Shown here: in pieces, positions 16,297-55,477 of the stretch | Numbering within the stretch: the first letter of the stretch is position 1 | Layout: the number at the start of each line of letters is the position of its first letter | Assembly: GCF_003315135.1 (NCBI RefSeq) | Contig: NZ_QNRK01000028.1 | Coordinates: forward strand, 1 to 64,000 | DNA: 64,000 nucleotides | Direction of reading: 5' to 3' | Origin: Roseiarcus fermentans | GTDB taxonomy: Bacteria; Pseudomonadota; Alphaproteobacteria; Rhizobiales; Beijerinckiaceae | The notes under the pieces: generated by a model | Databases searched by the model: none | Told to the model about the DNA's origin: nothing | What the model saw: the letters and a program-made list of their open reading frames with translations, nothing else | Position numbers and translations under genes: made by a program

Positions 16297-16330
16297 TTGA
16301 TCCTACAGTCATCTCGTATTATGGTAATAC
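16297..16330 (+). promoter_or_regulatory. Promoter plus GntR-type operator site A
   Basis: TTGATC (16297-16302), 17 bp, then TATGGT (16320-16325). The operator GTATTATGGTAATAC (16316-16330) overlaps the -10 box: a perfect GTATTA/TAATAC inverted repeat with a 3-bp spacer. It stands 73 bp before the start of the first binding-protein gene. Matching sites occur at 27372-27386 and 31351-31365. Confidence 0.75.
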
Positions 16331-16403
16331 CCGTCAGGTGAAATTGCGCTTGCGTCACGCGGGCGGACTGAAGCCCAAGACGCAACGGCCCTTGGAGGAA
16401 ACG

Positions 16404-17576
16404 ATGAAATTGCTTGCGAAATGGTTGGTCGGAGCGGCTCTGGCCGCGGGGGCCGGAACTCTGCCGGGTCTCGCTGCGGCCGACGACGCCGCGGACATGA
16501 TGAAGTCGCGGCTCGGCACGATCAGCGCTGATCCTGTGATCGCGGAGGCCTTTGCGCGCGCCGCAAAGCCGGTCACGCCGGAGATCCGGGCCAAGGCGCT
16601 GGAGTGCTGGAACAACAACGGCTGCGATACGGGCACTGGCGGCAAGATCAAGGTCGCCTACGCCGACGGATTCGGCGAGAACGTCTGGCGTCGCGTGACC
16701 GCGATGGAATTCATCGAACAGGCTCTGACCTATCCGGAGATCGGCCACATCCAATATTCGTCGGCGCGGGGGGACGCTTCGAAGGCGATCGCTGACATTC
16801 AGGCGTTTACCGCCCAGGGCGTCGATGTCATCGTCGTGTTTGCGGACCACGGCAAGGCGCTGGGGCCGGCTATCCGGGAGGCGAAGGACGCCGGCATCGA
16901 GGTCGTGCTGCACAACGGCACCGAGGCCGGAACGTCAGGCAAAGACTATCTCTCCAACGTCGCCGAGAACATCTGCCAGATGGGCAAGGAGTTCGTGAAG
17001 GCCGTGCTCGTCGGCAATCCGAACGCCAAATCGATCGTCGCGCTCGGGGGCACCCCCGGCAACCCGCTCAGCGCCTCCTGGCAGGAATGCGCGGAGAAGG
17101 AGGCTGCCGAACACCCCGGCGTCAAGATTGTCGGCAAGTTCGACACGAATTGGACTCAGGAAGGCACGTTCAACGCGGTCTCGGCGGCGCTGTCGCAGTT
17201 CGGCAAGGTCGACGGCTACATATACGAATATGCGGACGGCTTCCGCGGCGGGGTCCGTGCTTATGAAACGGAAAAGAAGCCCGAGGATTTCGTCGTTGCG
17301 CTGCGTACCGACGAGCAGGGTCTGTTTTGCGACTGGGAGGCCGCCGACCACGACGCCTTCAAGGTCTATTACTCGTCAGGTCAGAATTATCAGGCGAGAA
17401 TTGCGCTGACCGCCGCGATGATGGGCAAGGAGGGCAAGACCGTTCCCGCCAAGATCGATGTCCCCTTCTCGATGAAACCCGTCCATAAGGGCATGTGCAA
17501 CAAGGCGCTGCCGATGGAGATCTCCGTCTCGTCGCTCGTCGACCGCGACACGCTCGTGAAGATGTTCAGCAAATAG
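16404..17576 (+). CDS. Sugar-type (CUT2) ABC transporter substrate-binding protein, system 1
   Basis: 390 aa with a clear signal peptide (MKLLAKWLVGAALAAGAGTL, cleavage near LAAA). It has the periplasmic-binding-protein I fold: VAYADGFGENVWRR at the first strand, DIQAFTAQGVDVIVVF typical of RbsB/XylF-like proteins, and VALGGTPGNPLSASWQ. Four cysteines in the mature chain suggest disulphides. It resembles the system 4 binding protein in this window more than those of systems 2 and 3 (shared GFG-N-WRR and GGTPGN motifs). The first gene of an operon with the fused transporter and a second permease, it is preceded by operator A. The ligand is unknown. Confidence 0.88.
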   Translation: MKLLAKWLVGAALAAGAGTLPGLAAADDAADMMKSRLGTISADPVIAEAFARAAKPVTPEIRAKALECWNNNGCDTGTGGKIKVAYADGFGENVWRRVTAMEFIEQALTYPEIGHIQYSSARGDASKAIADIQAFTAQGVDVIVVFADHGKALGPAIREAKDAGIEVVLHNGTEAGTSGKDYLSNVAENICQMGKEFVKAVLVGNPNAKSIVALGGTPGNPLSASWQECAEKEAAEHPGVKIVGKFDTNWTQEGTFNAVSAALSQFGKVDGYIYEYADGFRGGVRAYETEKKPEDFVVALRTDEQGLFCDWEAADHDAFKVYYSSGQNYQARIALTAAMMGKEGKTVPAKIDVPFSMKPVHKGMCNKALPMEISVSSLVDRDTLVKMFSK

Positions 17577-17590
17577 AATTCCACAGCAAA

Positions 17591-17618
17591 GTCGATGACC
17601 GGTCCGCCGGTCATCGAC
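17591..17618 (+). promoter_or_regulatory. Intercistronic hairpin after binding-protein gene 1
   Basis: A perfect 12-bp stem (17591-17602 with 17607-17618), loop TCCG, no T run after it. It lies between the binding-protein and transporter genes. Such hairpins commonly protect the upstream message from 3' decay so that binding protein outnumbers membrane components. Confidence 0.65.
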
Positions 17619-17639: not shown

Positions 17640-20195
17640 GTGTCGGAACTCGTGCTCCGTATCGAAGACGTGTCGAAGACATATCCCGGCGTTCTGGCGC
17701 TGGACCGGTTCAGCATCGATTGCCGGGCGGGAGAGGTTCACGCGATCCTGGGCGAAAACGGATCGGGCAAGACCACGCTGATGAAGATCGCCAGCGGGAC
17801 GATTGCGCCGGACGGCGGCGTCGTCGAGATCAACGGGGCGAAGCTCGCCTCCGTCGATCCGCGTCTCGCCCGCCGGCTCGGTCTTGCGACCGTTTATCAG
17901 GATGATTCGCTCATCCGGGAATTGTCGGTCGCGCAGAATCTGTTTCTCGCCGCCCCCCCGGAGTCGGTCGCCTTCGGCGCAATGGTTCCCTGGGCGCGCG
18001 ATCAACTGGCGCGCTTCGGCGTGCAAACCGATCCGACAGCCGCAGTTGGATCCTTGTCGCCGGCGCAGCGGCAATTCATCGAAATCGTGAAGGCGCTGCT
18101 CTCCGATCCGAAGGTCCTGCTGCTCGACGAGCCGACCTCGACGTTGGACATGGATGGGGTGCGAAAACTCACCGACCTCATCCACAAACTGACCGCGGGA
18201 GGCGCCGGCATCGTCTATGTCAGCCACCGGCTGCCCGAGATTCTCGAACTTGCGCAGCGCGTCACGATCCTGCGCGACGGCGTGCATCGAGGCACCTTTC
18301 CGATCACGGCCGAGGTTTCCGAGCACGACCTCGTCTCGCTCATGGTCGGTCGGGACATCGGCAGCGAATACCCGCCGAAGCCCGCGACGCTGTCCGACCG
18401 CGTCGTGCTCTCGGTACGCGGCCTTTCCGGCGATCTTTTCTCCGATGTGTCCTTCGACGCGCACGCGGGCGAAATCGTCGGCTTCGCGGGCGCCGAAGGC
18501 AACGGTCAGCGTGAAGCCCTGCGCGCGATTGTCGGCCTCGAGGACGCGCAGGGGGCGATTGTTTGTCACGGAGCCGCCGTCGACGCGTCCGCGCCGAGAT
18601 CGGCGCTGGAGAGCGGGATCGTCTTCTTGAGCGCGGACCGGCCGGGCGAAGCGGTGTTCCCCGATCTCGGCGTCCAAAAAAACATGACGCTTTCGCGTCT
18701 CTCGGACTTCGCGCGCCTTGGATTTCTGTCGGGCTCCAACGAACGCGCCGCGGCCCGACTCATGAAGGCCGATTTCACCGTGGTCACCGCAAGTCTCGAC
18801 AAGCCGATCAGCGGGCTTTCGGGCGGCAACCAACAGAAGGCCGTCCTCGCGCGCAGCTTTCGGGCCGGCGCTAAGGCCGTGCTGATCGACGAACCGACTC
18901 AAGGCGTGGACGCCGGCGCGCGGTTCGAGATCTATAAGGCGGTGCGCGAAAACATCAGCGGGAGCGGCGCCTGTGTCGTCAATTCGTCCGACGCGCAGGA
19001 ACTCGCTGGCATCTGCGACAGGGTCCTGGTCTTTTCTCGCGGAAGAATCGTTCGCGAACTCAGGGGAGACGACGTCAACGAGGAGCGCATCGTCGCGAGT
19101 TTCCTCACCGTGCGCGACGCCAAGACCTTGAAGGAGCGATCAGAGCCGGCGGCGTTCTCGCGAATTCTTTCCGGCCTGATCCGCTACTTCGTTCACGGAA
19201 GCGAAACGTGGTGGATGCCGCTCGCATTCCTCGCCGCGTTGACGGCCCTCGTCGTCCTGTACGCCGCGTCGAAGAGCGACGTCTTTCTCCGCCCGATCAA
19301 CCTTCGCCATATGTTGCAGTCCACGGCGCCGGCGGCGCTGGTTGCAATGGCCCAACTGAACGTGCTCCTGGTGCGCGGTCTCGACGTTTCGGTGGGCTCG
19401 CTGATGAGCCTTACCGTGGTCGCAGCATCGTTCCTGATCGCGTCCGACGTTCCGCTGCTCATGGCGATCCTCGGAACGCTCGGGTGCCTCGCCATCGGCG
19501 CCGTCGTGGGGTTGGCGAACGGATCGCTCGTCCGGTACGCGAAGATCAATGCGGTCATCACCACGATCGCGATGCTCAGCGTCTTGCAGGGCGTCGCGCT
19601 GATCGGTCGGCCCATTCCGGATGGCGCGATCGATTCCGGATTCAGCGAGCTTCTGAAGCGACATGTCGGATTTGCGCCAGTCTGGACCGCCGCGCTGATC
19701 GTGCTCGCGATTCTCGGCGATCTCTGGCTCCATCGCTCGCGCGCCGGCCTCGAAGTCAAGGCGACGGGGTTCCGCGAGGAGGCCGCGCGGCGCAACGGCG
19801 TCGCCGTCGGCTTCGTTCAGGTGCGCGCCTATGTCGCCGCTTCGGTGATGGCCGCGGCCGCCGGTCTCTTCCTCGGCGCCGAGGTCGGAGTCGGTCATCC
19901 GACCGTCGGCGAAAACTTTCCGCTGATGAGCATCGCGGCGGCGGTCCTCGGCGGAGCGGCGCTCGGCGGCGGCCGTGGGTCGTATACCGGCGCCTTCTTC
20001 GGCGCCTTCTTTTTCACGCTGATGATCAACGTCATTTCGATCCTCGGCCTCAGCGCCGCGGTCGGCGTGATCGCAAGCGGCGCGATGACTTTGATGGCGA
20101 TCTTCTTCTACTCCGGGTTGGCGGAGGTCGACCGCTTGCTGCGCAGACTCTTTGCGCAGAGGCGACAACCGGTCGTGTCGACCCCTGCGGAGTAG
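17640..20195 (+). CDS. Fused CUT2 ABC transporter: two ATPase domains plus permease, system 1
   Basis: 851 aa. NBD1 (residues 1-240) has Walker A GENGSGKTT and Walker B LLLDEPTS. NBD2 (about 250-490) has a degenerate Walker A region (GAEGNGQRE) with signature LSGGNQQK and Walker B IDEPTQGVD, as in RbsA. From about residue 515 an RbsC-like permease follows, with helices through FLAALTALVVLYAAS and the GLDVSVGSLMSLT motif. RbsA and RbsC are normally separate proteins, so this is a natural fusion. GTG start at 17640 behind a GAGGGAGG ribosome site. A separate permease follows 4 bp later and may complete a heterodimeric channel. Confidence 0.88.
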   Translation: MSELVLRIEDVSKTYPGVLALDRFSIDCRAGEVHAILGENGSGKTTLMKIASGTIAPDGGVVEINGAKLASVDPRLARRLGLATVYQDDSLIRELSVAQNLFLAAPPESVAFGAMVPWARDQLARFGVQTDPTAAVGSLSPAQRQFIEIVKALLSDPKVLLLDEPTSTLDMDGVRKLTDLIHKLTAGGAGIVYVSHRLPEILELAQRVTILRDGVHRGTFPITAEVSEHDLVSLMVGRDIGSEYPPKPATLSDRVVLSVRGLSGDLFSDVSFDAHAGEIVGFAGAEGNGQREALRAIVGLEDAQGAIVCHGAAVDASAPRSALESGIVFLSADRPGEAVFPDLGVQKNMTLSRLSDFARLGFLSGSNERAAARLMKADFTVVTASLDKPISGLSGGNQQKAVLARSFRAGAKAVLIDEPTQGVDAGARFEIYKAVRENISGSGACVVNSSDAQELAGICDRVLVFSRGRIVRELRGDDVNEERIVASFLTVRDAKTLKERSEPAAFSRILSGLIRYFVHGSETWWMPLAFLAALTALVVLYAASKSDVFLRPINLRHMLQSTAPAALVAMAQLNVLLVRGLDVSVGSLMSLTVVAASFLIASDVPLLMAILGTLGCLAIGAVVGLANGSLVRYAKINAVITTIAMLSVLQGVALIGRPIPDGAIDSGFSELLKRHVGFAPVWTAALIVLAILGDLWLHRSRAGLEVKATGFREEAARRNGVAVGFVQVRAYVAASVMAAAAGLFLGAEVGVGHPTVGENFPLMSIAAAVLGGAALGGGRGSYTGAFFGAFFFTLMINVISILGLSAAVGVIASGAMTLMAIFFYSGLAEVDRLLRRLFAQRRQPVVSTPAE

Positions 20196-20199: not shown

Positions 20200-21249
20200 A
20201 TGTCGGACCGCTATTTTGGAACCCGAACCCTGAAGGGCGACATGACCAACGTCGGCGCCGAATTGCAAGCCAACCCTCAGAGCCCCGCGGCGAAACCGCA
20301 TGACAGGGCGCAGATCCCGATGCGCTTCGTCGCAATCTGGATCGGGCTCGGCGCGCTCATGCTCCTCAGTCGCATCTTCGTGCCGCCGAGCGTCGAATTT
20401 TCGACGCTGATGTCGGTCCTGCCCTTCGCCGCCTTTCTCACCTGCGTGACGATGGGCCAGACGCTGGTGCTGATGGGCCGCGGCATCGATCTTTCGCCGC
20501 CGGCGATCATCTCCCTGACCAGCACGACCTTGCTCGGGGTTTCCGGCGGTCATGACGACCGCATGTGGCTGGCCATCGGCGTGGCCTTGCTGGCGGCGGT
20601 TGCGGTCGGGCTTGTCAACGGCGTCCTGGTGGCCCTGGTCAAGCTCAACGCGCTGATCGTGACGCTCTCCACAGGCGCGATCGTTTCCGGCGTCACGCTC
20701 TGGTATCGCCAGAGCCTCGCCGCGGAATCCAAGGTTCCCGGCGCGCTCGCGAATTTCGGCGGCGCGCGGTTTATCGGGATTCCCACCTCGTTTTGGATCG
20801 TGGCGGCGTTGGCGGTCGTCATCGCGGTCATGATGAAGAAGACGGTCGTCGGGCGACGTTTCGAGGCGGTCGGCGCCAACCCTCGCGCAGCCTACGCCAC
20901 GGGCGTCGAGATCATCCGCTATCAAGCGGGCAGCTTTGTCGTCGCCGCGCTGCTCTATGGCGTGGCCGCGATCTTGCTTTCGGCCTTCATCCGAAATCCG
21001 ACGCTGGAAGTGGGCGCGCCCTATTTGCTCAGCCCGATCGCCGCCGCGGTGCTCGGCGGCACAGCGATCGCGGGCGGCATCGGGAACATGTTCGCCGTGG
21101 CCGGCGCCTCGCTGTTTCTGATCCAGCTCGACCACTCGCTCAAGATGCTCGGCCTCGCGACCTCGTATCAGCTCGTGATCCAGGGCGTCGCGATTGCGTT
21201 CGGGATGTGGCTGTCGGAAGCGACCGGCCGGGTCGGGCGGCGCTATTGA
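20200..21249 (+). CDS. CUT2 ABC transporter permease, system 1
   Basis: 349 aa, RbsC-family inner-membrane permease with about ten helices. The conserved GQTLVLMGRGIDLSPPAIISL, GRRFEAVGANPRAAYATGV and AVLGGTAIAGGIGN segments are present. It starts at ATG 20200, 4 bp after the stop of the fused transporter, so it is translationally linked. With the permease half of the fusion it probably forms a heterodimeric pore. Residues 1-45 form a hydrophilic N-terminal extension. The substrate is unknown. Confidence 0.88.
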   Translation: MSDRYFGTRTLKGDMTNVGAELQANPQSPAAKPHDRAQIPMRFVAIWIGLGALMLLSRIFVPPSVEFSTLMSVLPFAAFLTCVTMGQTLVLMGRGIDLSPPAIISLTSTTLLGVSGGHDDRMWLAIGVALLAAVAVGLVNGVLVALVKLNALIVTLSTGAIVSGVTLWYRQSLAAESKVPGALANFGGARFIGIPTSFWIVAALAVVIAVMMKKTVVGRRFEAVGANPRAAYATGVEIIRYQAGSFVVAALLYGVAAILLSAFIRNPTLEVGAPYLLSPIAAAVLGGTAIAGGIGNMFAVAGASLFLIQLDHSLKMLGLATSYQLVIQGVAIAFGMWLSEATGRVGRRY

Positions 21250-21319: not shown

Positions 21320-22387
21320 GTGGAGATCAGAGCGCTCATTGTTGGAGTGACCGGAATTGCGGGGAGAGGCGCGTCGCAGGCCCTGCTGGACGTGGGTGCG
21401 ACTGTTTACGGACTCTCGCGTCACGGCGAGGGCGTCGTCGACGGCGCGCGCCATATTCGCGCGGACGTGTTGGATGCAAATTCGCTGGAGAGGGCGCTGT
21501 CAGGGCTCGAGCCGACCCATGTCTTTCTGACGACCTGGATACGGCGCGCGACCGAGCAGGAGAATATCGAGACCAACGCCGGGATCGTTCGGCGCACGCT
21601 CGAAGTCGCGAGTCGAGAGAACAGCGTTCAGCACGTCGCGCTCGTCACAGGCCTCAAACATTATCTCGGCCCGTTCGAATCGTACGCACGCACCGGAACT
21701 CTGCCCTTGACGCCAGTGCGCGAGGAGCAGCCCCGGCTCCCGACGCCGAATTTCTACTACGCACAGGAAGACGAGCTCTTTGCGGCCGCAGAGCGTTACA
21801 GATTCACCTGGAGCGTTCACCGGCCGCATACGATCATCGGCAAGGCGATCGGCAATGCGATGAACATGGGTACGACGCTCGCCGCCTACGCCTCGATCTG
21901 CAAGGAGACCGGACGGCCGTTCAAGTTCCCGGGTAGCGCGGCGCAGTGGAATGGCCTGACCGACATGACCGACGCGCGCGTTCTCGGCAAGCATCTCGTC
22001 TGGGCGAGCACTGAGGATCGAGCCAAGAACGACGCCTACAATATCGTCAACGGCGATGTGTTTCGGTGGAGCTGGATGTGGCCGCGCATCGCCGACTGGT
22101 TTGGGGTGCGTTGGACCGGTTTCGAAACGGAGCCCGCCCCGCTCGAAGCGCAGATGCAGGATTGCAGACCGATCTGGAAAGCGATGGCGGCCAAATACGG
22201 CCTGGTCGAAGCGGAACTCGATCGGGTCGCTTCGCCCTGGCACACCGACCTCGATCTCGGTCGCCCGCTCGAGGTGGTGACCGACATGGCCCTCAGCCGC
22301 AAACGCGGCTTCCTCGAATACCAAAGCACTGAGGAGTCGTTCCGCGATCTGTTTTCGCGGCTGCGAGAGGACCGTGTGATTCCGTAA
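21320..22387 (+). CDS. PRISE-type enone reductase (progesterone 5-beta-reductase/iridoid synthase-like SDR)
   Basis: 355 aa, an atypical SDR. Diagnostic PRISE motifs are present: GVTGIAGRG for the cofactor, TGLKHYLGPFE (K113) in place of the SDR catalytic segment, NFYYAQEDEL (Tyr146/147), SVHRPHTIIG, and FPGSAAQWNGLTDMTDA with NIVNGDVFRW at the end. Characterised relatives reduce C=C bonds of alpha,beta-unsaturated ketones or dialdehydes with NADPH. GTG start behind a strong GAGGAGG. It is the last gene of the operon led by binding protein 1, so it probably acts early on the imported compound, perhaps producing the saturated ketone for the BVMO. Substrate unknown. Confidence 0.85.
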   Translation: MEIRALIVGVTGIAGRGASQALLDVGATVYGLSRHGEGVVDGARHIRADVLDANSLERALSGLEPTHVFLTTWIRRATEQENIETNAGIVRRTLEVASRENSVQHVALVTGLKHYLGPFESYARTGTLPLTPVREEQPRLPTPNFYYAQEDELFAAAERYRFTWSVHRPHTIIGKAIGNAMNMGTTLAAYASICKETGRPFKFPGSAAQWNGLTDMTDARVLGKHLVWASTEDRAKNDAYNIVNGDVFRWSWMWPRIADWFGVRWTGFETEPAPLEAQMQDCRPIWKAMAAKYGLVEAELDRVASPWHTDLDLGRPLEVVTDMALSRKRGFLEYQSTEESFRDLFSRLREDRVIP

Positions 22388-22576: not shown

Positions 22577-23434
22577 TCATCCCACCCTGGCGGGTTGCGC
22601 CTGCGCGATTGGCCTCAGGCCGAGAATCGCGCGCGCCTCAGCCGGAGTGGCGACCGGGCGATCGTGATTGTGGCAGAGTTCGACGACACGTTTCACCAGG
22701 GCGGCGTTGGAGGGCGCAAGCGTGTTTCGATCGAGACGAACATTGTCCTCGAGTCCGGTCCTCGCATGGCCCCCCGCCGCCACGACCCATTCGTTCAGAA
22801 CGATCTGGTTGGCGCCGATGCCGGCGGCGCACCACTCCGCGCCCGGCATCAGGCGCTTCGTCGTCTCGATGTAGAAGTCGAAGACGGCGCGGTCGGCCGG
22901 CATGGCGTTTTTGACGCCCATAACGAACTGAACATAGACGTTTCCCGGAATGCGGCCGTCGGCGTTCATCTCCGCGGCTTTGAAAATATGGCTGAGATCG
23001 AAGGCTTCGATTTCGGGCTTGACCGCGTGGGCGCGCATCTCCCCAGCCAGCCAGTCGACCAGATCCGGAGGGTTTTCGTAGACCCGGGTCGGAAAGTTGT
23101 TCGATCCGACGGCGAGCGAGGCCATGTCGGGCCGGAGCGACAGCATTCCACCGCGGTCTTTGCCGGACGCCGCGCGCCCGCCGGTCGAAAACTGGACGAC
23201 CATGCCGGGGCAATACTTCACGACGCCCTCCTTGAGCCGGGCGAAGCGCTCGGGGTCCGAGGTCGGGTTCTGGTCGGCGTCCCGAACATGGGCGTGAACG
23301 ATCGCGGCGCCGGCCTCGAAGGCGGCCTGCGCACTCTCAATTTGTTCGGCGACCGTCACCGGGACTGCCGGGTTGTCCGATTTGCGAGGCAGGGAGCCCG
23401 TGATCGCGACACAGATGATGCACGGTTTCGACAT
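22577..23434 (-). CDS. Beta-keto acid cleavage enzyme (BKACE, DUF849)
   Basis: 285 aa from ATG 23434, with GGGAG spaced ahead of it. Zinc ligands HAH (H47, H49) are followed by VRD, and the distal GGHARTGLEDN carries the Arg/Glu pair typical of Kce-like enzymes. The family transfers the acetoacetate part of a beta-keto acid to acetyl-CoA, giving acetoacetate (or a homologue) and a new acyl-CoA. In this cluster it could cleave the beta-keto acid at the end of the oxidative pathway. Divergent from an MBL hydrolase across operator B. The first annotated Met upstream (in the operator) is rejected because it precedes the motif-poor stretch overlapping the promoter. Confidence 0.87.
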   Translation of the reverse strand: MSKPCIICVAITGSLPRKSDNPAVPVTVAEQIESAQAAFEAGAAIVHAHVRDADQNPTSDPERFARLKEGVVKYCPGMVVQFSTGGRAASGKDRGGMLSLRPDMASLAVGSNNFPTRVYENPPDLVDWLAGEMRAHAVKPEIEAFDLSHIFKAAEMNADGRIPGNVYVQFVMGVKNAMPADRAVFDFYIETTKRLMPGAEWCAAGIGANQIVLNEWVVAAGGHARTGLEDNVRLDRNTLAPSNAALVKRVVELCHNHDRPVATPAEARAILGLRPIAQAQPARVG

Positions 23435-23467
23435 CGCGTTTCTCCCGAGGTCCAGGCCAGCAGGCCC

Positions 23468-35345: not shown

Positions 35346-35347
35346 TC

Positions 35348-44779: not shown

Positions 44780-44793
44780 CGGATGAGGGTCAT

Positions 44794-44818: not shown

Positions 44819-44837
44819 GTGTCTCGAATTCGAACCG

Positions 44838-47464: not shown

Positions 47465-48541
47465 ATGCGCGTTTTCGGTTCTCCCCACCGCTACTACCAA
47501 GGTCCCGGCGTTTTCGACGAACTGGGTCCGATCATCGCTCCGTTCGGACCGCGTCCCCTGATTGTCGTCGACGCCTTGATGCTGGAAGCTCTCCGTGACC
47601 GACTTGAAGCGACGCTCGGGCGCGCCTCCGTGACGGCCATCGTCAAACCGTTCTCCGGCGAGATCACCTATGCCGCGATCGACGATCTGATCGCCGAGCT
47701 CGGGGGCGCAGTTCCAACTGCGGCCGTCGGCATTGGCGGGGGCAAGTCGCTCGACGCCGCAAAGGCGGTTGCGCTCAAACTCGGCCTTCCGGTGGTGACG
47801 GTCCCGACAATCGCCTCGAACGACAGCCCCACGTCATCCGTCATCGCAATGTACGACGCGTCCCACTCCTTGATTTCCGTGGACAAAATGCCGCGCAGTC
47901 CGGAGGCGGTGGTCGTCGACACCGCCATCATCGCAAGAGCCCCTGCCCGACTGCTTCGGGCGGGCATCGGAGACGCCGTCGCCAAGAAGTTTGAAGCGGA
48001 GGGTTGCCTTCGGGGAACCGGAAAGACTCCTTTCGGCACACGTCCCCTTCACACGGCGATGGTCATCGCCGACGCCTGTTACCAGACGCTTCGGGCTCAC
48101 GCTGTCGATGCGCTCGCCGCCGTCGAACGGCAGCGGGTCGACGATGCCCTCGAAAGGGTCGTCGAAGCGACGATTCTGATGAGCGGGCTCGGGTTCGAGA
48201 ACGGCGGGCTCTCCCTTGCCCATTCCATGACGCGGGGTCTCGTCAACGCCCGGGGCGCCCGCGACGCCATCCATGGGGATCAGGTCGCCTACGGCCTCCT
48301 TGTCCAGCTCGCGTTCGAGAACCGGCCGGACGACTTTCTCCGCGATCTTCTCGGATTCTATCGCGCAATCGGACTTCCGTCTTCGCTCACGCGACTCGGC
48401 ATGGATCGCCCGACGGACGAGGAGGTGGCCGAGATCGCGCGCCTGACCATGACTGCGCCGCATCTCGCCAACGTGACCCCGACGGCGACCGAGAGCGGTA
48501 TTGGGGAAGCTGTTCGTCGCGTCGAACGTTTGGCGGCTTGA
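47465..48541 (+). CDS. Glycerol-dehydrogenase-like (GldA family) NAD-dependent alcohol dehydrogenase
   Basis: 358 aa. GldA landmarks: VFGSPHRYYQGPGV opening, GIGGGKSLDAAKA for NAD, TVPTIASNDSPTSS, and metal ligands in GIGDAVAKKFEA (Asp), GLSLAHSMTRG (His) and DAIHGDQVAYG (His). The family oxidises vicinal diols such as glycerol or 1,2-propanediol to hydroxyketones. Position: right after importer 4, 50 bp gap, probably same operon. An alpha-hydroxyketone product would be a natural substrate for the TPP-dependent transketolase encoded nearby. Confidence 0.88.
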   Translation: MRVFGSPHRYYQGPGVFDELGPIIAPFGPRPLIVVDALMLEALRDRLEATLGRASVTAIVKPFSGEITYAAIDDLIAELGGAVPTAAVGIGGGKSLDAAKAVALKLGLPVVTVPTIASNDSPTSSVIAMYDASHSLISVDKMPRSPEAVVVDTAIIARAPARLLRAGIGDAVAKKFEAEGCLRGTGKTPFGTRPLHTAMVIADACYQTLRAHAVDALAAVERQRVDDALERVVEATILMSGLGFENGGLSLAHSMTRGLVNARGARDAIHGDQVAYGLLVQLAFENRPDDFLRDLLGFYRAIGLPSSLTRLGMDRPTDEEVAEIARLTMTAPHLANVTPTATESGIGEAVRRVERLAA

Positions 48542-48599: not shown

Positions 48600-49391
48600 T
48601 CAGGCGAGGTCGACTGGGACAGCCGGCGTCGGTTCCTTGGCCGAGATCGCGGCGGTGACGAAACTGATGACCGCCGCAATATAGGTGTCGATCGAAATGC
48701 CGCGCCTTCTGTACTTTGCCCGCTTGACGTACCAGTCTTGCAGCAGCGGCTTGATGAGGGCGGCGGTAAGGCCAACGTCAGACAGGGCAAAGATCCCCGC
48801 GGCGGCGCCTTGCTCGAGAACGCGCGCTATGATGGCCTCGGTTAGGGCTTCGCTGTCGATTGCAATCCGCCGTTCGGCCGGCGGGAAGGCTTTCGCCTCC
48901 ATATAGGCGAAGACGAACCAGGGCTGCAGGGTTTCGGTCAAGCGGATGTGCGATTCAATCAACCATCGAAGGTGCGCGGCTGCATCGATTGTGACCTCTT
49001 GCGGCGGCTTGCTGAGGACGTCGGCCACCGTCGAGGCCACTTCCCTCAGAATCATCGAAAGAAGCATGGGCTTGCCTGAGAAGTACGAATAGAGCCCGCC
49101 CATGCTGAGGCCGGTCGTCTTCGCCAGGTCCCGCAGGGTCGTCGCCTGAAAGCCCTGCCTGTTGGAAAGCTTCAGCGTCGCATCGATGATCCGGGCGAGA
49201 TTGGCCACCGCGATATGGGTTTTTTGCACCCGAATGGCGTCGCGATGCCGTTCCAAAATGCGCCCACACAGGACCTCCGTCGAGACGTTGGCCGTCAGTC
49301 CGTTTCGACTCGGGTAACTCACGGTGCCCTCTCGGCTCGCCTGTCGCAGTTGCAGCGTCCTTCTGAAATCATAGCACTTGCGTCCTTGCAA
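48600..49391 (-). CDS. TetR-family transcriptional regulator
   Basis: 263 aa. The helix-turn-helix region is FQATTLRDLAKTTGLSMGGLYSYFSGK, typical TetR/AcrR, followed by an all-helical ligand-binding domain. An N-terminal extension of about 60 residues precedes the HTH; GTG or ATG starts further in are possible. Divergent from the transketolase pair with a palindromic GAGCG-N2-CGCTC site in between. The same site appears at two other module B promoters, making this the likely regulator of all three. It is the only TetR gene in the window. Confidence 0.88.
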   Translation of the reverse strand: MQGRKCYDFRRTLQLRQASREGTVSYPSRNGLTANVSTEVLCGRILERHRDAIRVQKTHIAVANLARIIDATLKLSNRQGFQATTLRDLAKTTGLSMGGLYSYFSGKPMLLSMILREVASTVADVLSKPPQEVTIDAAAHLRWLIESHIRLTETLQPWFVFAYMEAKAFPPAERRIAIDSEALTEAIIARVLEQGAAAGIFALSDVGLTAALIKPLLQDWYVKRAKYRRRGISIDTYIAAVISFVTAAISAKEPTPAVPVDLA

Positions 49392-49575: not shown

Positions 49576-50418
49576 ATGTCCATTAAGAACCACCCGGCTT
49601 CCCCGCCCGATATTCCTGGTCTGCGCTCGAGAGCGCTCAATCTGCGTCGCAAGATGATGGCGATGGCCAGGGGTAAGGGTGAGGGGTACATCGCCCAAGG
49701 GCTTGGGATAGCGGACTGCCTGGCGGCGATCTACTTTCATGAGTTGCGCTACGATTCGGCCAACCCGACCTGGTCGGAGCGAGACCGATTTGTTTTGTCG
49801 ACAGGCCATTACTCGATCGCAATGTATGCGACCCTGGCCGAGGCGGGCTATATCGACGCAGCCGAACTTCCGACCTATGGCCTGAACGGGTCACGCTTGC
49901 CAATGAGCACTTTTGACGATCTTCCCGGCGTCGAGGTGGTCGGCGGCTCGCTCGGACATGGCCTCGGGCAGGCGGTCGGCATGGCCATGGGGCTCAGGCT
50001 CGATGGCTCGGAGGCCAGAGTGATCTGCGAGCTGTCCGACGGGGAGCTGGAGGAGGGGTCGACCTGGGAGGCGGCGATGGCCTCGGCGACCTTCAAATGC
50101 GACAACCTCGTCGCGCTGATCGATTGCAACGGGATCCAGGCGGACGGCCCGATTACGGTGAAGATCGAGCCGGTGGCCGACAAGTTCGCCGCCTTCGGTT
50201 GGGACACCGCCGAGGTGAACGGCAACGACATGGCCGAGTTGGTCGACGCGCTGGCTCGGATGAGAGCGCGGGACGAAAAGCCCAAAGCAATCGTCATGCG
50301 CACCACCCCAGGATTCGGCGTGCCGACCATCATGAAACGAGAGCGTGCGCATTTCGTGAGGGTCGACAATAGCGAGTGGGATGCGCTCGTCGCCGAATTG
50401 GAGCGCGAAAATGGCTGA
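49576..50418 (+). CDS. Transketolase, N-terminal (TPP-binding) subunit
   Basis: 280 aa from ATG 49576; ATG 49561 is also possible but sits inside inverted repeats. The TPP motif is CELSDGELEEGSTWEAAM followed by LIDCNGIQADG. The N-terminal His-containing GSLGHGLGQAVGMAMG and LSTGHYSIAMYA are also typical. Split transketolases transfer a two-carbon ketol unit between ketose and aldose donors and acceptors. No companion phosphosugar genes lie nearby, so the donor may be unusual. Overlaps the C-terminal subunit gene by 8 bp. Confidence 0.88.
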   Translation: MSIKNHPASPPDIPGLRSRALNLRRKMMAMARGKGEGYIAQGLGIADCLAAIYFHELRYDSANPTWSERDRFVLSTGHYSIAMYATLAEAGYIDAAELPTYGLNGSRLPMSTFDDLPGVEVVGGSLGHGLGQAVGMAMGLRLDGSEARVICELSDGELEEGSTWEAAMASATFKCDNLVALIDCNGIQADGPITVKIEPVADKFAAFGWDTAEVNGNDMAELVDALARMRARDEKPKAIVMRTTPGFGVPTIMKRERAHFVRVDNSEWDALVAELERENG

Positions 50419-51397
50419 GGACACTTTTTCGCCCGGCCGCACCCGCGGCATGGGGGAGTTGATCGACATCTCCGGCAAGACCACGGAACTCGCGCCGTTT
50501 GGTCGAACGCTGGCGGAGCTCGGAACCGAGCGCCCCGAGATTGTGGGGCTCACCGCGGACATGGGACGCTACAGCGACATTCTGCCGTTCCGCGACGCTC
50601 ATCCCACGCGTTTTTTCAATGTGGGCATGGCCGAGCAGTGTCTTGTCATGGTTGCCGCTGGCCTCGCCAAGACCGGCAAGATCGCATACTGCACCACCTA
50701 CTCCGTCTTCATCACCCGACGCGCTTATGATTTTGTCGCGATCGCCGGCGCCCATTCAAAGGCGAATGTGAAAATCTTCGCCGGCATGCCGGGCTTGATG
50801 AACGGGTATGGCGCCACGCATCAGGCCACTGAAGATCTCAACATGATGCGCGGAATCGCGGACCTCACGATCATCGACCCCTGCGACGCGACCGAGCTCA
50901 AGCAGGTTGTGCGGGCCGTCGCCGACATTCCCGGCGCCGTCTATGTGCGCACCTTGCGCGGCAAAGTTCCGGTCGAACTCCCAGCCGACTACAGGTTCGA
51001 GCTTGGCAAGGCGAAGCTTTTGCGGCGCGGCGGCGACGTCGGGATCATCTCGACTGGCTACATGTCGGCGCGCGCGTTGGACGCCGCCAAAGCGGCCTCG
51101 GCCGCCGGAGTGGAGGCGAGTGTGCTCCACCTGTCGACGATCAAGCCGTTCGACGCCCGCTCGGTCCGCGACTTTGCACAACAGTTCCGTCGCCTGATTG
51201 TCGCAGAGAATCACAAGACGACAGGCGGGCTGGCGAGCCTCGTGGTCGAGACGTTGTATGATTCCGGAATCGTGAAGCCCATGATCAAGATCGGTCTCGC
51301 CGACAGTTTCTTCGAGTGCGGCTCCCAGGAATATCTCGAAGCCAAGTATGGCGTCGACCTGCCGCGATTCGTGAGGGCGATCGTAGAAGCGCGCTGA
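50411..51397 (+). CDS. Transketolase, C-terminal subunit
   Basis: 328 aa from ATG 50411. Pyrimidine-binding domain with the catalytic Glu in NVGMAEQ, the YGATHQATEDLNMMRGI segment typical of split transketolases, and a C-terminal domain with the VRTLRGKVPVELP region. It forms the active enzyme with the N-terminal subunit encoded just upstream. Followed 11 bp later by an SDR gene, so TK and SDR are co-transcribed. Confidence 0.88.
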   Translation: MAEDTFSPGRTRGMGELIDISGKTTELAPFGRTLAELGTERPEIVGLTADMGRYSDILPFRDAHPTRFFNVGMAEQCLVMVAAGLAKTGKIAYCTTYSVFITRRAYDFVAIAGAHSKANVKIFAGMPGLMNGYGATHQATEDLNMMRGIADLTIIDPCDATELKQVVRAVADIPGAVYVRTLRGKVPVELPADYRFELGKAKLLRRGGDVGIISTGYMSARALDAAKAASAAGVEASVLHLSTIKPFDARSVRDFAQQFRRLIVAENHKTTGGLASLVVETLYDSGIVKPMIKIGLADSFFECGSQEYLEAKYGVDLPRFVRAIVEAR

Positions 51398-51408: not shown

Positions 51409-52194
51409 ATGGAATTGCAGGGGCGCGTGGCCCTTATCACCGGAGCGGCGAGCGGGCTTGGCCTCGTGGCCGCGAGAACCTTTGCGCGTGAGGGCGCAAC
51501 AGTCGTCGTCAACGACTTGCGCCTCGCGCTTGCGCAGGAGGCGGCGCGCGGCCTCGGCGAGAACCATTCGGCAGTGGCCGGCGACGTCTCCAACGAGGCG
51601 CAGGTGAACGCCATGGTCGCCGAGGCGATCGACCGCCACGGCAAGATCGACATTCTCGTCAACAACGCCGGCGTGCCGGACATCTTTGCGCCCACCGTCG
51701 AGCAATCCCTCTCGCATTGGCAGCGCCTGATCGACGTCCATCTGACCGGAACCTTCCTTGTTTCCAAGGCGGTCGCGCCTTCGATGATTGCGCGCCGGTC
51801 CGGGGTCATACTCAATATGAGTTCGATCGCAGGGGTCCTGGGCTTGCCAGTGCGAACCGCTTACAGCGCGGCGAAGGCGGGCATCGGGATGCTGACGCGG
51901 GTCCTCGGCTGCGAGTGGGGACCGCACAGCATACGGGTGAATGCCGTGGCGCCTGGATACATTCGAACGCCGATGACCGAGAAGCTGATCGGCGAAGGCA
52001 AGATCGACGAGCGACGTATCCGCAAGCGTACCCCCATGGGAAGGATGGGAAGCGCCGAGGATGTCGCGGAGGCCTTGCTCTTTCTGGCCTCGGATCGCGC
52101 CCGCTTCATCACCGCCGCCACCCTTCCGGTTGACGGAGGATACTGCGCCTGGGGCGCGCCGAGCGACGCATTTCCGCTGGCTGAAGGCGAATAG
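51409..52194 (+). CDS. SDR-family oxidoreductase, copy 4
   Basis: 261 aa from ATG 51409. TGAASGLG, NNAG, MSSIAG and YSAAK active-site segments, ending ATLPVDGGYCAWG with an unusual hydrophilic tail. Classical SDR. Co-transcribed with the split transketolase upstream and BVMO 2 downstream (153-bp gap). Substrate unknown, but an alcohol-to-ketone step ahead of the monooxygenase is consistent. Confidence 0.87.
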   Translation: MELQGRVALITGAASGLGLVAARTFAREGATVVVNDLRLALAQEAARGLGENHSAVAGDVSNEAQVNAMVAEAIDRHGKIDILVNNAGVPDIFAPTVEQSLSHWQRLIDVHLTGTFLVSKAVAPSMIARRSGVILNMSSIAGVLGLPVRTAYSAAKAGIGMLTRVLGCEWGPHSIRVNAVAPGYIRTPMTEKLIGEGKIDERRIRKRTPMGRMGSAEDVAEALLFLASDRARFITAATLPVDGGYCAWGAPSDAFPLAEGE

Positions 52195-52347: not shown

Positions 52348-53970
52348 ATGACCGAGATCGCCCATTCGAGCCCCGATGTCACCGAGCTTGACGTTGCCGT
52401 GATCGGCACGGGCTTCGGCGGTCTCTATGCGCTGCACAAATTTCGCAACGAGCTTGGCCTCAACGTCCAGGCCTTTGATGACGCCGGTGACGTCGGGGGC
52501 ACGTGGTATTGGAATCGGTACCCGGGCTGCCGCGTCGACACAGAGGCGACGGTCTACTGTTATTCCTTCGACAAAGACCTCGTACGCAGCTGGAAATGGT
52601 CGGAGCGTTATCCGCAGCAGCCGGAAGTGTTGGCCTACCTGAACACGGTCGCGACCAAACATGATCTCAGGCGCTCGATCAACTTCAACACGAGAGTGGT
52701 GAACGCCGAGTGGGATGAGACATCGCCAGGCTGGAAACTGACGACCGCGGATGGAAGGCGATACAAAGCCCAGTTCGTCGTCGAAGGGGTTGGTCTCCTC
52801 TCCTCGACCAACATCCCGAAGTTCACCGGCTCGGAGACATTCAAGGGCGAAATCATCTCGGCCTCGCGCTGGCCTCAGCGTCCCGTTGATCTCAAGGGCA
52901 AGCGCGTGGCCGTGATCGGCACGGGCTCGACGGGCGTTCAGGTGATAACGGCGATCGCGCCCGAGGTCGGTCACCTCTACGTCTTGCAGCGGACTCCGCA
53001 ATATGTCGTCCCGCTCGGCAACCAGCATCCGCTTCCTGAGAAAGCGCTTCGCGCGATACAAGAGGATCCGGATGAGTTCTTCCGGTGGAATCTTAATACT
53101 GGCGCCGTGTTCGGTTTCCAGGAGAGCACGATTCCGGCGTTGAGCGTGTCGGATGCGGAAAGACAGCGCCTCTATCAGCAGGCGTGGGATCGGGGCAACG
53201 GCTTCGCTTTCATGCTCGAGACCTTCAGCGACCTGACGACCAGCGAGGAGGCGAACAAGACAGCGACCGATTTCATGCGCGACAAGATCCGCAGCACCGT
53301 CAAGGATCCGCAGGTCGCCGAGATGCTTTGCCCGAATGATTTCTACGCCAAGCGGCCGCTCGCGACCGACAACTACTACGAGGTCTACAATCGGTCGAAC
53401 GTTACGCTCGTCGACGTGAAGGCGGACCCGATTCAGGGGTTTACCGAGCGCGGCATCCGGACAACCAGTGGAGAGATCGAACTCGACGTCGTCATCTTCG
53501 CGACCGGCTTCGACGCAGTCACCGGCAACTATCTGAAGATCGACACGACCGGCCGCGACGGTCAGAAGCTTCAGGACAAATGGAGGAATGGACCGAGCGC
53601 CTTCGCGGGCGTCGCGATCTCCGGCTTCCCGAACCTCTTCATGATCTACGGTCCGTTCTGCCCCTTTACCAGCCAACCGCTGGTGCATGAATGGCAGGTC
53701 AACTGGTTCGCCGATCTCGTGGTCCACGCGCGCGCAACCGGCGGCAAGACCGTCGAGGTCTCGCCAGAGACCGAAAAGGCGTGGGTCAAGGTGTGTGTCG
53801 ATGGCGCCGCGGCGACCTTGTTCGCGCGCACCGATAGCTGGATCAACGGGACCAACATTCCCGGCAAGCCGAGGGCCGCAATGTTCTACATGAACGGAAT
53901 GGCGAATTACATCAAGGAGATGAGCCAGATCGTCAACTCCGGTTACGCCGGTTTCGGCATCGGCGCCTGA
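52348..53970 (+). CDS. Baeyer-Villiger monooxygenase-like flavoprotein, copy 2, altered fingerprint
   Basis: 540 aa. FAD-binding GTGFGG (G20-G25), GTWYWNRYPG, NADPH-binding GTGSTG (191-196) and the KRP arginine region (FYAKRPLATD) are all present. The type I BVMO fingerprint reads FKGEIISASRWP (165-176): the conserved His is Ser171 (codon 52858-52860), while BVMO 1 has His at the same position. In known BVMOs this His supports the conformational change during catalysis. The enzyme could still work, or could act as an NADPH oxidase, N-monooxygenase-like or other group B flavin monooxygenase. Strong AGGAAG before ATG 52348. Confidence 0.87.
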   Translation: MTEIAHSSPDVTELDVAVIGTGFGGLYALHKFRNELGLNVQAFDDAGDVGGTWYWNRYPGCRVDTEATVYCYSFDKDLVRSWKWSERYPQQPEVLAYLNTVATKHDLRRSINFNTRVVNAEWDETSPGWKLTTADGRRYKAQFVVEGVGLLSSTNIPKFTGSETFKGEIISASRWPQRPVDLKGKRVAVIGTGSTGVQVITAIAPEVGHLYVLQRTPQYVVPLGNQHPLPEKALRAIQEDPDEFFRWNLNTGAVFGFQESTIPALSVSDAERQRLYQQAWDRGNGFAFMLETFSDLTTSEEANKTATDFMRDKIRSTVKDPQVAEMLCPNDFYAKRPLATDNYYEVYNRSNVTLVDVKADPIQGFTERGIRTTSGEIELDVVIFATGFDAVTGNYLKIDTTGRDGQKLQDKWRNGPSAFAGVAISGFPNLFMIYGPFCPFTSQPLVHEWQVNWFADLVVHARATGGKTVEVSPETEKAWVKVCVDGAAATLFARTDSWINGTNIPGKPRAAMFYMNGMANYIKEMSQIVNSGYAGFGIGA

Positions 53971-54041
53971 ATCGGGGCGGCGCGCGCTGGTTTTTTTTGC
54001 GCCGCGCCTCTCAACGCTGAACACAGAGAGGGTCTCTGGCA

Positions 54042-54572
54042 ATGCGCTTCGCAAAGGAAACGCGCATCGGCGACGGCGAGGGCTTCCGGGCGTTTCCCGC
54101 CGACGCCGCTCTCGACGGTCGGACGGCGACTTACGTTCTGAAGGCGCAGGCGGGTTTCGATGCCCTGCGCAACGCGGCGGCGCAGCTTGCTGCCCTGCTC
54201 GTGTTGGTGTCGATTGGCAAGCGAGATCGTGTCCTTGACGAGCCGATCCTTGCGCAGGCCGAAACCGCATTCAAAGAAGCGGAAGACATCCTCGGTGCGA
54301 TCGAGGCGCCCGCAGCCGCGGCTCACCACCACTTTCACCTTTCGCTCGCCCGCGAACGAATTGGCGAGGCCTTGCGAATTGCTCGGCAGGGTTCGCTGCG
54401 GATTGACGAGCCGTCGCTTGATCGGGCGCATCAGACGCTGAAGGCAGGGTGGCGGGAGATGCTGGCAGGGAGCAAGGCGCTGCCGGGCTTTCAGGTCGTC
54501 GATTTCAGCCAATCCTGCTGCGCGGCCCATCGAGGTCTTCGCGAGCGTCGGATCGAGCCTTGTAGCGGATAA
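54042..54572 (+). CDS. Unknown helical protein between BVMO 2 and MBL 2
   Basis: 176 aa, no family recognised. Predicted mostly helical with an Ala/Leu/Glu-rich middle, a histidine cluster (AAAHHHFHLSL near residues 87-97), two adjacent cysteines near the C terminus (SQSCCAAH) and no signal peptide or membrane segment. It lies 71 bp after BVMO 2 and 26 bp before the second MBL gene on the same strand, so it very probably belongs to the pathway operon. His and Cys clusters could hint at metal binding. No function is proposed. Confidence 0.7.
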   Translation: MRFAKETRIGDGEGFRAFPADAALDGRTATYVLKAQAGFDALRNAAAQLAALLVLVSIGKRDRVLDEPILAQAETAFKEAEDILGAIEAPAAAAHHHFHLSLARERIGEALRIARQGSLRIDEPSLDRAHQTLKAGWREMLAGSKALPGFQVVDFSQSCCAAHRGLRERRIEPCSG

Positions 54573-54598
54573 CCAAAAGAAGCGAAAGGGAGGCGATT

Positions 54599-55477
54599 AT
54601 GAGCAAGTATTCCATTTGGGTTCTAGAGTACTGCCGCGTCGAAGAACTGCCGGCGAGCGCGGTCGTATACGGCGCCCATAACCGGGGAACGCTTCGGCTT
54701 CCCTTCTGTTACACTCTGGTCAAAGGACCGGACTTCGCGGCATTGATCGACGTGGGTTACAACGACGTGGACCACGGGCGCGAGCTGACCGAGATGTTCG
54801 GGATCTCGAATTGGCGCGACCCGCACACTGTCCTTGGCGAATGCGGACTGACCCCTGAGCAGATCACGCATGTGATTCTGACCCATGGCCATTTCGATCA
54901 CATGGGGGGCACGGACCTCTTTCCGAAAGCAACGTTCTTCATTCAGGAAAGGGAGCTTTCGCGATGGGTTTGGGCGATGTCGATCGGCCGAAGGTTCCGG
55001 TGGCTCATGGAGGCCGTCGATCCTGGCGATGTTCTGCGCGTAGTCGAACTCGCACGCCAGGGCCGGCTCGTTTCTCTCGAGGGCGCTCTCGAAGACGTGC
55101 TGCCCCATATCGATCTTTATCCCGCGCACGAGAGCCACACGCCGGGCTCCCAATACGTGGTCATTCGTAACGACGGCAAACGCGACTCGGCCGACGTTTG
55201 GGTCATGGCGGGCGACCTGATTTACCAGTTCGAGAATCTGCACGGCAACAACGAAGCCGATCCCTACTATGTCCCGGTCGGGCTCGGGAGCGGCAGTCAG
55301 ACCAATATGTTGCTGGCGATCGACGAGATGATCAAGCGCGCCGGCGGGGAGATGCGCCGCGTGATCCCGGCCCACGAAGAGGGACTCAAGACTGTGTTCC
55401 CTTCGCGGATTGCAGCGAGCGGATTGCGCGTGACCGAGATAGCGCTCGCGGATGGAGAGCCAAGTCGGGTGCGGTGA
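54599..55477 (+). CDS. MBL-fold hydrolase, AHL-lactonase-like, second copy
   Basis: 292 aa. Metal motif THGHFDH (H96, H98, D100, H101) and the distal His and Asp in AHESHTPGS and VMAGDLIY, with a last His in IPAHEEG. Closer to the N-acyl-homoserine-lactonase group than MBL 1. GGGAGG ribosome site. Last gene of module B. With BVMO 2 it mirrors the BVMO/MBL pairing of module A, supporting lactone or ester hydrolysis after Baeyer-Villiger oxidation. Quorum-quenching activity is a possible alternative. Confidence 0.86.
   Translation: MSKYSIWVLEYCRVEELPASAVVYGAHNRGTLRLPFCYTLVKGPDFAALIDVGYNDVDHGRELTEMFGISNWRDPHTVLGECGLTPEQITHVILTHGHFDHMGGTDLFPKATFFIQERELSRWVWAMSIGRRFRWLMEAVDPGDVLRVVELARQGRLVSLEGALEDVLPHIDLYPAHESHTPGSQYVVIRNDGKRDSADVWVMAGDLIYQFENLHGNNEADPYYVPVGLGSGSQTNMLLAIDEMIKRAGGEMRRVIPAHEEGLKTVFPSRIAASGLRVTEIALADGEPSRVR

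Follow-up and report, generated by a model that had tools for sequence, protein, structure and literature searches.

A GntR-linked gene cluster of Roseiarcus fermentans that may join a CUT2-like importer to Baeyer-Villiger catabolism of a hydroxylated alicyclic compound

The window analysed here is a stretch of 64,000 nucleotides from Roseiarcus fermentans (contig NZ_QNRK01000028.1, positions 1 to 64,000), within which a catabolic island occupies positions 16297–55477. The left part of this island (16.3–32.2 kb, hereafter the left module) is probably a regulon under GntR control that serves the catabolism of a small hydroxylated alicyclic compound, with uptake by a CUT2-like importer and opening of the ring by a Baeyer-Villiger monooxygenase (BVMO). 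The evidence comprises the identities of the genes, a core that is conserved together with a CUT2 importer, a shared palindromic operator, the clade to which the BVMO belongs and a signature in its pocket. An earlier reading of the same DNA (the original prediction) had joined CUT2 import to Baeyer-Villiger oxidation across the entire 39 kb; this association holds for the left module, where an importer is co-conserved in 5/5 related loci and shares the predicted operator, but not for the island as a whole.

Gene calling and Pfam were applied to all 31 named island proteins and NCBIfam to 30 (one permease excepted). Every gene class of the original prediction was recovered, with its coordinates: four substrate-binding proteins (SBPs; PF13407) with ATPases and PF02653 permeases, constituting four CUT2-type systems, two BVMOs, two metallo-beta-lactamase (MBL)-fold proteins, four short-chain dehydrogenases/reductases (SDRs), a PRISE protein (PF22917), a BKACE, an aldehyde dehydrogenase (ALDH), an Fe-dependent alcohol dehydrogenase (Fe-ADH), a GldA-like protein, a split transketolase, and GntR/FCD and TetR regulators. 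Neither sugar kinase, isomerase nor glycosidase was detected among the 31 named proteins, which bears out the remark that the CUT2 importers lack a sugar kinase or isomerase and does not support a 'glycosidic' substrate. CUT2 systems 1, 2 and 4 each possess a PF13407 SBP, an ATPase with two ABC domains and a PF02653 permease; the ATPase of system 3 is single-domain. The features of the left module are as follows (operators carry no strand).

16316–16330, operator GTATTATGGTAATAC, 0 mismatches, before the importer operon and 73 bp upstream of the SBP1 start used (16404)
16404–17576 (+), SBP1, substrate-binding protein of importer 1 (PF13407; two orthologues, 70 and 72%)
17640–20195 (+), ATPase-permease fusion of importer 1, 851 aa (two PF00005 domains and PF02653)
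20200–21249 (+), permease of importer 1 (PF02653)
21320–22387 (+), PRISE-type enone reductase candidate (PF22917; NFYY at 144)
22577–23509 (-), BKACE, 3-oxoadipate:acetyl-CoA acetyltransferase model (NF053568, 483.9 against a cut-off of 350 bits)
23481–23503, overlapping operator copies at the BKACE/MBL1 divergence, 1 and 2 mismatches
23581–24486 (+), MBL1, MBL-fold lactonase candidate (PF00753)
24647–25360 (-), SDR1 (PF13561)
25433–27070 (-), BVMO1, a BVMO of the cyclohexanone monooxygenase (CHMO) type (Pfam; both sequence fingerprints present)
27372–27386, operator between the divergent BVMO1 and ALDH genes, 0 mismatches
27624–27646, second operator region before ALDH, two overlapping matches with 2 mismatches each
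27727–29199 (+), ALDH resembling succinate-semialdehyde dehydrogenase (SSADH) (PF00171)
29196–30440 (+), Fe-ADH (PF00465 and PF25137)
30545–31234 (+), GntR/FCD regulator, proposed operator binder (PF07729 and PF00392; orthologue in 5/5 related loci)
31351–31365, operator before SDR2, 0 mismatches
31461–32180 (+), SDR2 (PF13561; orthologue in 4/5 related loci)

The SBP1 start at 16404 was picked for its signal-like N-terminus, the gene caller having placed it at 16338. An AlphaFold model of SBP1 from a 3-row alignment had a pLDDT of 45.5, and the solved relatives of SBP1 and SBP3 are distant and do not fix the ligand. NFYY is a mark of PRISE enzymes. The operator copies at 23481–23503 fall inside the called start of BKACE; the part of the protein that aligns with solved BKACEs starts only at residue 26, and a start there would lie near 23434. 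MBL1 residues H118, H120, D122, H123, H202 and D223 are invariant across six aligned proteins, including MBL2. The best NCBIfam model for ALDH, TIGR01780, gave 450 bits, under its cut-off of 646. Regular expressions for the metal sites of Fe-ADH and GldA found no match, a result which reflects the patterns rather than the enzymes.

The operator emerged from an enumeration of palindromes over 31 intergenic stretches of the window and of the related loci described below. GTATTA-N3-TAATAC was present in 7 of these, while 50 base shuffles gave no palindrome with 6-base halves in more than two stretches. All window matches to the operator GTATTAnnnTAATAC lie near gene starts and in the left module. 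Allowing up to two mismatches, GTATTANNNTAATAC has 7 matches in the window, where dinucleotide shuffles predict 0.07 and none of 100 reached that count; the matches lie between 16.3 and 31.4 kb, ahead of the importer, where BKACE and MBL1 diverge, at two places between BVMO1 and ALDH, and before SDR2. Sites with three mismatches, of which about 2.5 are expected by chance in 64 kb, were found before GntR, beside the one at SDR2, in the gap between the TetR and transketolase genes (49559) and within BVMO2. The degenerate tandem GTAWTAYNRTAWTAC (GTAWTAY-N-RTAWTAC), scored at 14/15 or better, gave 6 hits in the window, 22 in six pieces of the five related loci and 2 in 26 other loci (593 kb), both of the latter being Pararhizobium promoter sites already counted, met again in an overlapping piece. 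Operator sites precede the importer in the window and in three of the related loci (L041, L043 and L044), despite the different importer type of L044. The operators of FadR/FCD-type GntR proteins have a GTA-n-TAC-like consensus, with which the heptamer GTAnTAC agrees, and each of the six clusters (window plus five related) has an FCD-GntR gene. Both marks of an FCD-GntR regulon, a conserved operator at the target promoters and a co-conserved GntR gene, are thereby found, and the GntR protein presumably binds the predicted operator. Membership of BVMO2 in this regulon had been considered and was dropped after the operator scan.

A scan of genome contigs for BVMO1, which relies on exact short peptides and is not exhaustive, found nine loci. 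Four were 69–83% identical, in Prosthecomicrobium pneumaticum (L041), Mesorhizobium comanense (L042), a Solirubrobacterales metagenome-assembled genome (MAG; L043) and Pararhizobium sp. YC-54 (L044). The remainder, at 43–54%, belong to four Brevibacterium and one uncultured Rhodopila, and the rest of the module was not found in the three that are annotated (two Brevibacterium, Rhodopila). In a sample of 397 genomes of the order (E<=1e-175) the matches were the genome's own, the Prosthecomicrobium place again and genome G380 (82%; L055/L056); among 398 genomes of the phylum (E<=1e-190) only the own BVMO1 matched, and among 298 genomes of the family nothing outside the own exceeded 47%. The left-module unit is rare within the genome samples searched.

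All five other loci with a BVMO1 orthologue (69–83%) contain SDRx, BVMO, SDR1, GntR, MBL1, Fe-ADH, ALDH and a CUT2 importer, and four also have SDR2; the co-occurrence of CUT2 genes with both BVMOs in other genomes, on which the original prediction was to be checked, was seen for BVMO1 in 5/5 loci. The importer is of the SBP1 type in L041, L043 and L055, of the SBP4 type in L042, where it is related to system 4 of the window (SBP 55%) and adjoins the BVMO1 orthologue, and of a third, unfused type in L044. That different importers fill the same slot points to a real need for import. The flanks of the related loci are mostly unrelated. The cluster on the L043 contig is 66–79% identical to that of the window (PRISE 51%).

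Type I BVMOs are marked by the fingerprints FxGxxxHxxxW and GG-x-W-x4-YPG-x3-D. BVMO1, whose nearest relative in the PDB is TmCHMO, has both, while its orthologues L062 and L063 have Gln in place of the His of the first. In BVMO2, nearest to 8wkc, Ser replaces this His; the aligned stretch of 8wkc also lacks the His. BVMO2 keeps the second fingerprint and the equivalents of D59 and R329, and scores 596 bits to TmCHMO. At the equivalents of TmCHMO positions 428 and 437 (numbering of chain 5m0z; Leu/Leu in TmCHMO) all 8 CUT2-linked BVMOs have Tyr/Gln, found in 0/35 of the others among the 43 aligned and in 0/6 additional ones. L428 and L437 touch the ligand in front of the flavin, according to PMC5213842, and the other contact residues given there (T60, L145, P430, F434 and T435) are unchanged in BVMO1 and BVMO2. 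The plain reading of these residues is that the clade would have a more polar pocket. The eight CUT2-linked BVMOs fall on one side of a branch with support 98/93, BVMO2 grouping with a Cnuibacter enzyme, and BVMO1 lies in a different clade from the two canonical CHMOs in the tree, those of Polaromonas and Roseibium. Class and actinobacterial samples (230 and 244 genomes), searched with BVMO2 at E<=1e-150, returned only own matches, the L043 BVMO and the CHMO of G1364; this last has Leu/Leu at the pocket positions, and the CUT2 proteins of the window were unmatched in two 13-kb pieces of that genome. The third CHMO-like BVMO of the R. fermentans genome (G000:C7:25946–27556) is 40% identical to BVMO1; a longer match to it spans one TGA and a shorter match none.

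In the proposed pathway, the importer with its fused ATPase-permease would take up a hydroxylated alicyclic compound, SDRs would oxidise the ring hydroxyls and PRISE would saturate an enone, if any. BVMO1 would convert the cyclic ketone to a lactone for hydrolysis by MBL1, Fe-ADH and the SSADH-like ALDH would oxidise the freed alcohol to a dicarboxylate, and BKACE would split a 3-oxoadipate-type beta-keto acid using acetyl-CoA. We infer this order, with Baeyer-Villiger opening towards 3-oxoadipate, from the gene families; BKACE, which passes the curated equivalog cut-off of the 3-oxoadipate:acetyl-CoA acetyltransferase family, is the sole proposed step with a specificity call at such a cut-off. 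A ring oxygenated at C1 and at C3 or C4 would give 3-hydroxy- or 3-oxoadipate, hence our best guess, a soft one, that the substrate may be a cyclohexanediol or a deoxycyclitol-like compound. The guess is soft because deoxyribonate catabolism, too, has been proposed to include the action of BKACE on an oxygenated beta-keto acid (PMC6365646). In that oxidative deoxyribose/deoxyribonate pathway one putative operon, likewise serving an oxygenated substrate, comprises a lactonase, an SDR and a BKACE (PMC6365646), kinds of enzyme that also occur together in the left module, the lactonase as a candidate. Unlike the left module, it involves a sugar acid and a proposed uptake by a major facilitator superfamily transporter, and no BVMO is named in the part of the paper available.

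The right part of the island (33–55 kb) looks like a mosaic of further, separately conserved modules, among which the BVMO2 module would be of the same general kind as the left module. Its features are as follows.

33281–37830 (+), CUT2 system 2: SBP2, two permeases and ATPase (Pfam; outside the operator regulon)
37891–38649 (+), SDR3 (PF13561; 61.5% to an SDR of the Cnuibacter cluster)
39164–42398 (+), CUT2 system 3: permease, XylF-like SBP3 and single-domain ATPase (Pfam/NCBIfam)
42529–47414 (+), CUT2 system 4: permease, SBP4 and fused ATPase-permease (Pfam)
47465–48541 (+), GldA-like dehydrogenase (NF006941, 356.9 against a cut-off of 336)
48600–49322 (-), TetR regulator (PF00440)
49654–51397 (+), split transketolase, N and C halves (PF00456; PF02779 and PF02780; nearest solved C half 6yaj)
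51409–52194 (+), SDR4 (PF13561)
52348–53970 (+), BVMO2, CHMO-type, with Ser for the fingerprint His (Pfam, alignment)
54042–54572 (+), small protein preceding MBL2, of a family that precedes MBL2-type enzymes
54599–55477 (+), MBL2, MBL-fold hydrolase (PF00753)

A plasmid of Cnuibacter physcomitrellae (L065) holds relatives of BVMO2 (54%), the transketolase halves (66%), SDR4 (54%), GldA (45%) and SDR3 (62%), together with a fused CUT2 importer, an SSADH, a CoA ligase, a thiolase and an annotated N-acyl homoserine lactonase, the last without a match to MBL1 or MBL2 at 1e-10. The transketolase-GldA cassette occurs without a BVMO on a Paracoccaceae plasmid (75/78/63%) and in Variovorax (63/52/41%) (L068 and L069). 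Split transketolase, GldA and SDR form a portable cassette, which recurs in different catabolic clusters (L065, L068, L069); transfer of formaldehyde or of a ketol group is a conceivable role for transketolase and GldA. A relative of system 2 sits with a mannitol dehydrogenase, an SDR and a GntR, and one of system 3 adjoins an inositol 2-dehydrogenase, an intradiol dioxygenase and a maleylacetate reductase, so these two systems may be ordinary polyol and cyclitol importers. The protein at 54042–54572 is 28% (E 1e-15, L108) and 31% (L110) identical to the ORF before an MBL2 homologue on Mesorhizobium ciceri plasmids. VDFxxSCC is common to the small protein of the window and that of L108, and in the window and on the two plasmids a member of the family stands directly before an MBL2-type enzyme, with CUT2 systems nearby. 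A search of open PMC papers found nothing on a split transketolase with a glycerol dehydrogenase, or on PDB code 8WKC.

Importers 1 and 4 share with RbsABC-type CUT2 importers the PF13407 SBP, two-domain ATPase and PF02653 permeases, but differ from them in the fusion of ATPase and permease. Of the genome's 31 matches to CUT2-type ATPases (E<=1e-40), only those at 17643 and 44934 extend over the permease part, and both fusions lie in the island; 150 of 257 candidates were scored in this count, which a fusion with a very different permease could escape. In a tree of 22 ATPases, 11 full-length fusions and that of Cnuibacter, which is cut by the end of the locus (its record annotates 2616 bases), form one 99/98 group. 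Twelve fused-importer loci outside the BVMO1 clusters were read, taken non-randomly from among the best hits, and in these, unlike RbsABC-type systems, the annotated neighbours are mostly not of sugar type. They include a BVMO (L065); two XplA-like P450s, an AMP-binding protein and a BKACE-like protein (L102); nitrile hydratase and amidases (L104); alkene reductase, MaoC and EthD (L105); EthD, ALDH and choline dehydrogenase (L106); Fe-ADH and SSADH (L115); and hisD-like and NAD(P)-dependent oxidoreductases with an MBL2-type enzyme and its small partner, an acid-sugar kinase/PdxA operon lying farther on (L110). Pfam on 10 ORFs of the unannotated L103 found ALDH, AraC-type and cupin proteins only. 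In the case of the two fused importers it is doubtful that the CUT2 label implies a sugar.

The remaining four loci (L111–L114) have a Gfo/Idh/MocA oxidoreductase, a ring-cleavage dioxygenase and a maleylacetate reductase. PRISE relatives (50–57%) stand beside the fused importer in L111, L113 and L114, on plasmids of Loktanella, Rhizobium WL3 and Sinorhizobium B11 respectively, in a recurrent cluster which also has a Zn-dehydrogenase. With PRISE relative, dioxygenase and maleylacetate reductase, the route of these three would end at 3-oxoadipate, and the cluster looks like a cyclitol-to-hydroxyquinol-to-3-oxoadipate pathway. We know of no description of such a pathway, and a search of open PMC papers for inositol with the hydroxyquinol route brought up none. 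A broader proposal, which we put forward tentatively, is that the fused CUT2 subfamily and the polar-pocket Tyr428/Gln437 BVMO clade might together serve an undescribed opening of polyhydroxylated or deoxy-cyclitol carbocycles without aromatisation, the acid passing to 3-oxoadipate via BKACE, with the sister PRISE clusters using an aromatising route of hydroxyquinol type. The regulon proposed for the left module would connect an importer family known for sugars with Baeyer-Villiger catabolism and would hint at a natural role for a BVMO clade with a more polar pocket, of use in biocatalysis. The predicted operator and regulator offer a testable handle for finding the substrate, and Tyr428/Gln437, the MBL lactonase candidate and the tandem GTAWTAC operator a signature for finding more such pathways. 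The original prediction knew of no described pathway of the kind it proposed, and searches of open PMC papers for Baeyer-Villiger oxidation with a transporter, cyclitol or regulator likewise brought up none.

Cyclohexanol degradation proceeds in the Chn system through alcohol dehydrogenase, BVMO, lactonase, hydroxy-acid dehydrogenase and semialdehyde dehydrogenase, and candidates for all five ChnA–E activities are present in one cluster, as had been predicted, by family membership. It could accordingly be supposed that the left module is an ordinary cyclohexanol (chn) cluster with a transporter adjacent by chance, given the same reaction set and the proximity of BVMO1 to TmCHMO in the PDB; we regard this as decidedly unlikely. 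Comparison was made with seven canonical CHMO stretches (Polaromonas JS666, Roseibium, Pseudosulfitobacter, Pseudomonas, Sulfitobacter, Rhodococcus YL-1 and Sphingobium plasmids), taken as annotated up to 10 kb on each side, the PLSDB gene tables being incomplete. They share with the left module a CHMO-type BVMO and an annotated alcohol or zinc-binding dehydrogenase (7/7), a nearby SDR annotated as 'glucose 1-dehydrogenase' (6/7) and SSADH (6/7). All seven annotate an alpha/beta-hydrolase beside the BVMO and no MBL protein, whereas the left module has an MBL-fold enzyme and no alpha/beta-hydrolase of the ChnC type was found in it. The left module also has a dedicated CUT2 importer, co-conserved in 5/5 loci and under the same predicted operator (a CUT2 system is present in one of the seven canonical stretches), a predicted GntR operator, and a BVMO with Tyr428/Gln437 in a clade separate from the Polaromonas and Roseibium CHMOs. 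A signal or quorum-quenching locus, in which MBL enzymes open acyl-homoserine lactones (AHLs) and the importers take up signals, is very improbable. In its favour, the AidB AHL-lactonase model gives MBL1 134 bits, under the cut-off of 360, and relatives of MBL2 are annotated as N-acyl homoserine lactonase family; against it, MBL1 accompanies BVMO, Fe-ADH and ALDH in each of the five related loci and no other signalling gene was seen among the scanned island proteins.

A weightier alternative, which we consider possible though somewhat doubtful, is that the CUT2 label misleads and that what the fused importer takes up, and the BVMO attacks, is no cyclitol but a terpenoid or xenobiotic alcohol or ketone of non-sugar kind. 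CHMO-type enzymes mostly accept small hydrophobic ketones, and fused importers elsewhere adjoin XplA-like P450s, nitrile hydratase/amidase, alkene reductase/MaoC/EthD or Fe-ADH/SSADH; Tyr/Gln in place of Leu/Leu in the pocket and the four fused-importer loci with Gfo/Idh/MocA, ring-cleavage dioxygenase and maleylacetate reductase fit polyhydroxylated rings instead. The original prediction itself, in which the whole 39 kb forms one two-module pathway with four importers for one compound, now appears unlikely. Both BVMOs do belong to the same CUT2-linked clade, the Cnuibacter locus unites a BVMO2-like enzyme with transketolase halves, GldA, SDRs, SSADH, annotated lactonase and a CUT2 importer, and an SBP4-type importer serves the BVMO1 cluster of L042. 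Against this, BVMO2, the transketolase/GldA cassette and CUT2 systems 2–4 (33–55 kb) have no close operator match, the sites at 49559 and inside BVMO2 being weak; no BVMO2 orthologue was found in the four genomes with the left module that were searched; the transketolase-GldA cassette occurs without a BVMO in L068 and L069; and relatives of systems 2 and 3 stand, in other genomes, beside genes of polyol or cyclitol type.

Several observations weigh against the reading of the left module as a GntR-controlled Baeyer-Villiger regulon with its own importer. The operator was derived from the window and the related loci, so the counts there are not independent (the controls are the shuffles and the 26 other loci), and no operator site immediately precedes the importer in L042 and L055, where the importer comes after SDR2 on the same strand. 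PRISE is present in one of the five related loci (L043, 51%), BKACE, which in the window lies at an operator of the module, was found in none, their SDRx has no orthologue in the window, and the L044 importer is unfused and of another type. The L043 cluster reflects transfer between phyla or misbinning, and may be misbinned. Conservation of the importers without the enzymes, which would have told against the original prediction, was not seen in the five loci, but Sinorhizobium chiapasense is an exception, having an SBP1-type importer with no BVMO within 14 kb, beside P450s and a distant BKACE. Among the 41 comparison BVMOs, the contrast of 'CUT2-linked' with 'other' holds for the ten whose neighbourhoods were read: those of seven annotated plasmid stretches, that of G1364 and, by tblastn, those of two Brevibacterium loci. 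The eight CUT2-linked BVMOs are one lineage, so the Tyr/Gln signature may count as one event, and in 8wkc, a BVMO2 relative of solved structure, position 437 is Gln as well, while position 428 is Phe. A CUT2 system with an unfused ATPase lies about 6 kb from the canonical CHMO of Roseibium. Because Fe-ADHs are found near the canonical CHMOs of Roseibium and Sulfitobacter (2/7), Fe-ADH is no distinguishing mark, and 'Fe-ADH instead of Zn-ADH' was dropped as such.

The genome (6.79 Mb, 90 contigs) has 44 Peripla_BP_4 hits, so that CUT2 systems are frequent in it, and in simulation four of 44 SBPs fell within 28 kb somewhere in 3.2% of random placements; the clustering of CUT2 genes, which might have seemed remarkable in itself, is on these figures weak evidence. 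Two of the three CHMO-like BVMOs of the genome (E<=1e-100) lie within 28.6 kb, as in 2.6% of random placements. G+C content at third codon positions is lower in the island than in the flanks (0.79 for 31 genes against 0.88 for 19; p=1.8e-7). The histidine kinase of the left flank was found in 8 of 10 congeners, and the island genes, generic ABC ATPase matches aside, were absent from the eight pieces downstream of it, which reach about 2 to 17 kb; over that distance the comparison suggests, but does not prove, that the island was acquired. Between the left and right parts (32174–32653, minus strand) is a short PF07929 protein (plasmid pRiA4b ORF-3-like; 29.1 against a cut-off of 26.6 bits), possibly a mobile-element remnant. 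The right flank (56108–61089) specifies a polysaccharide-export protein, a beta-barrel porin-like protein and an O-antigen-ligase-like protein.

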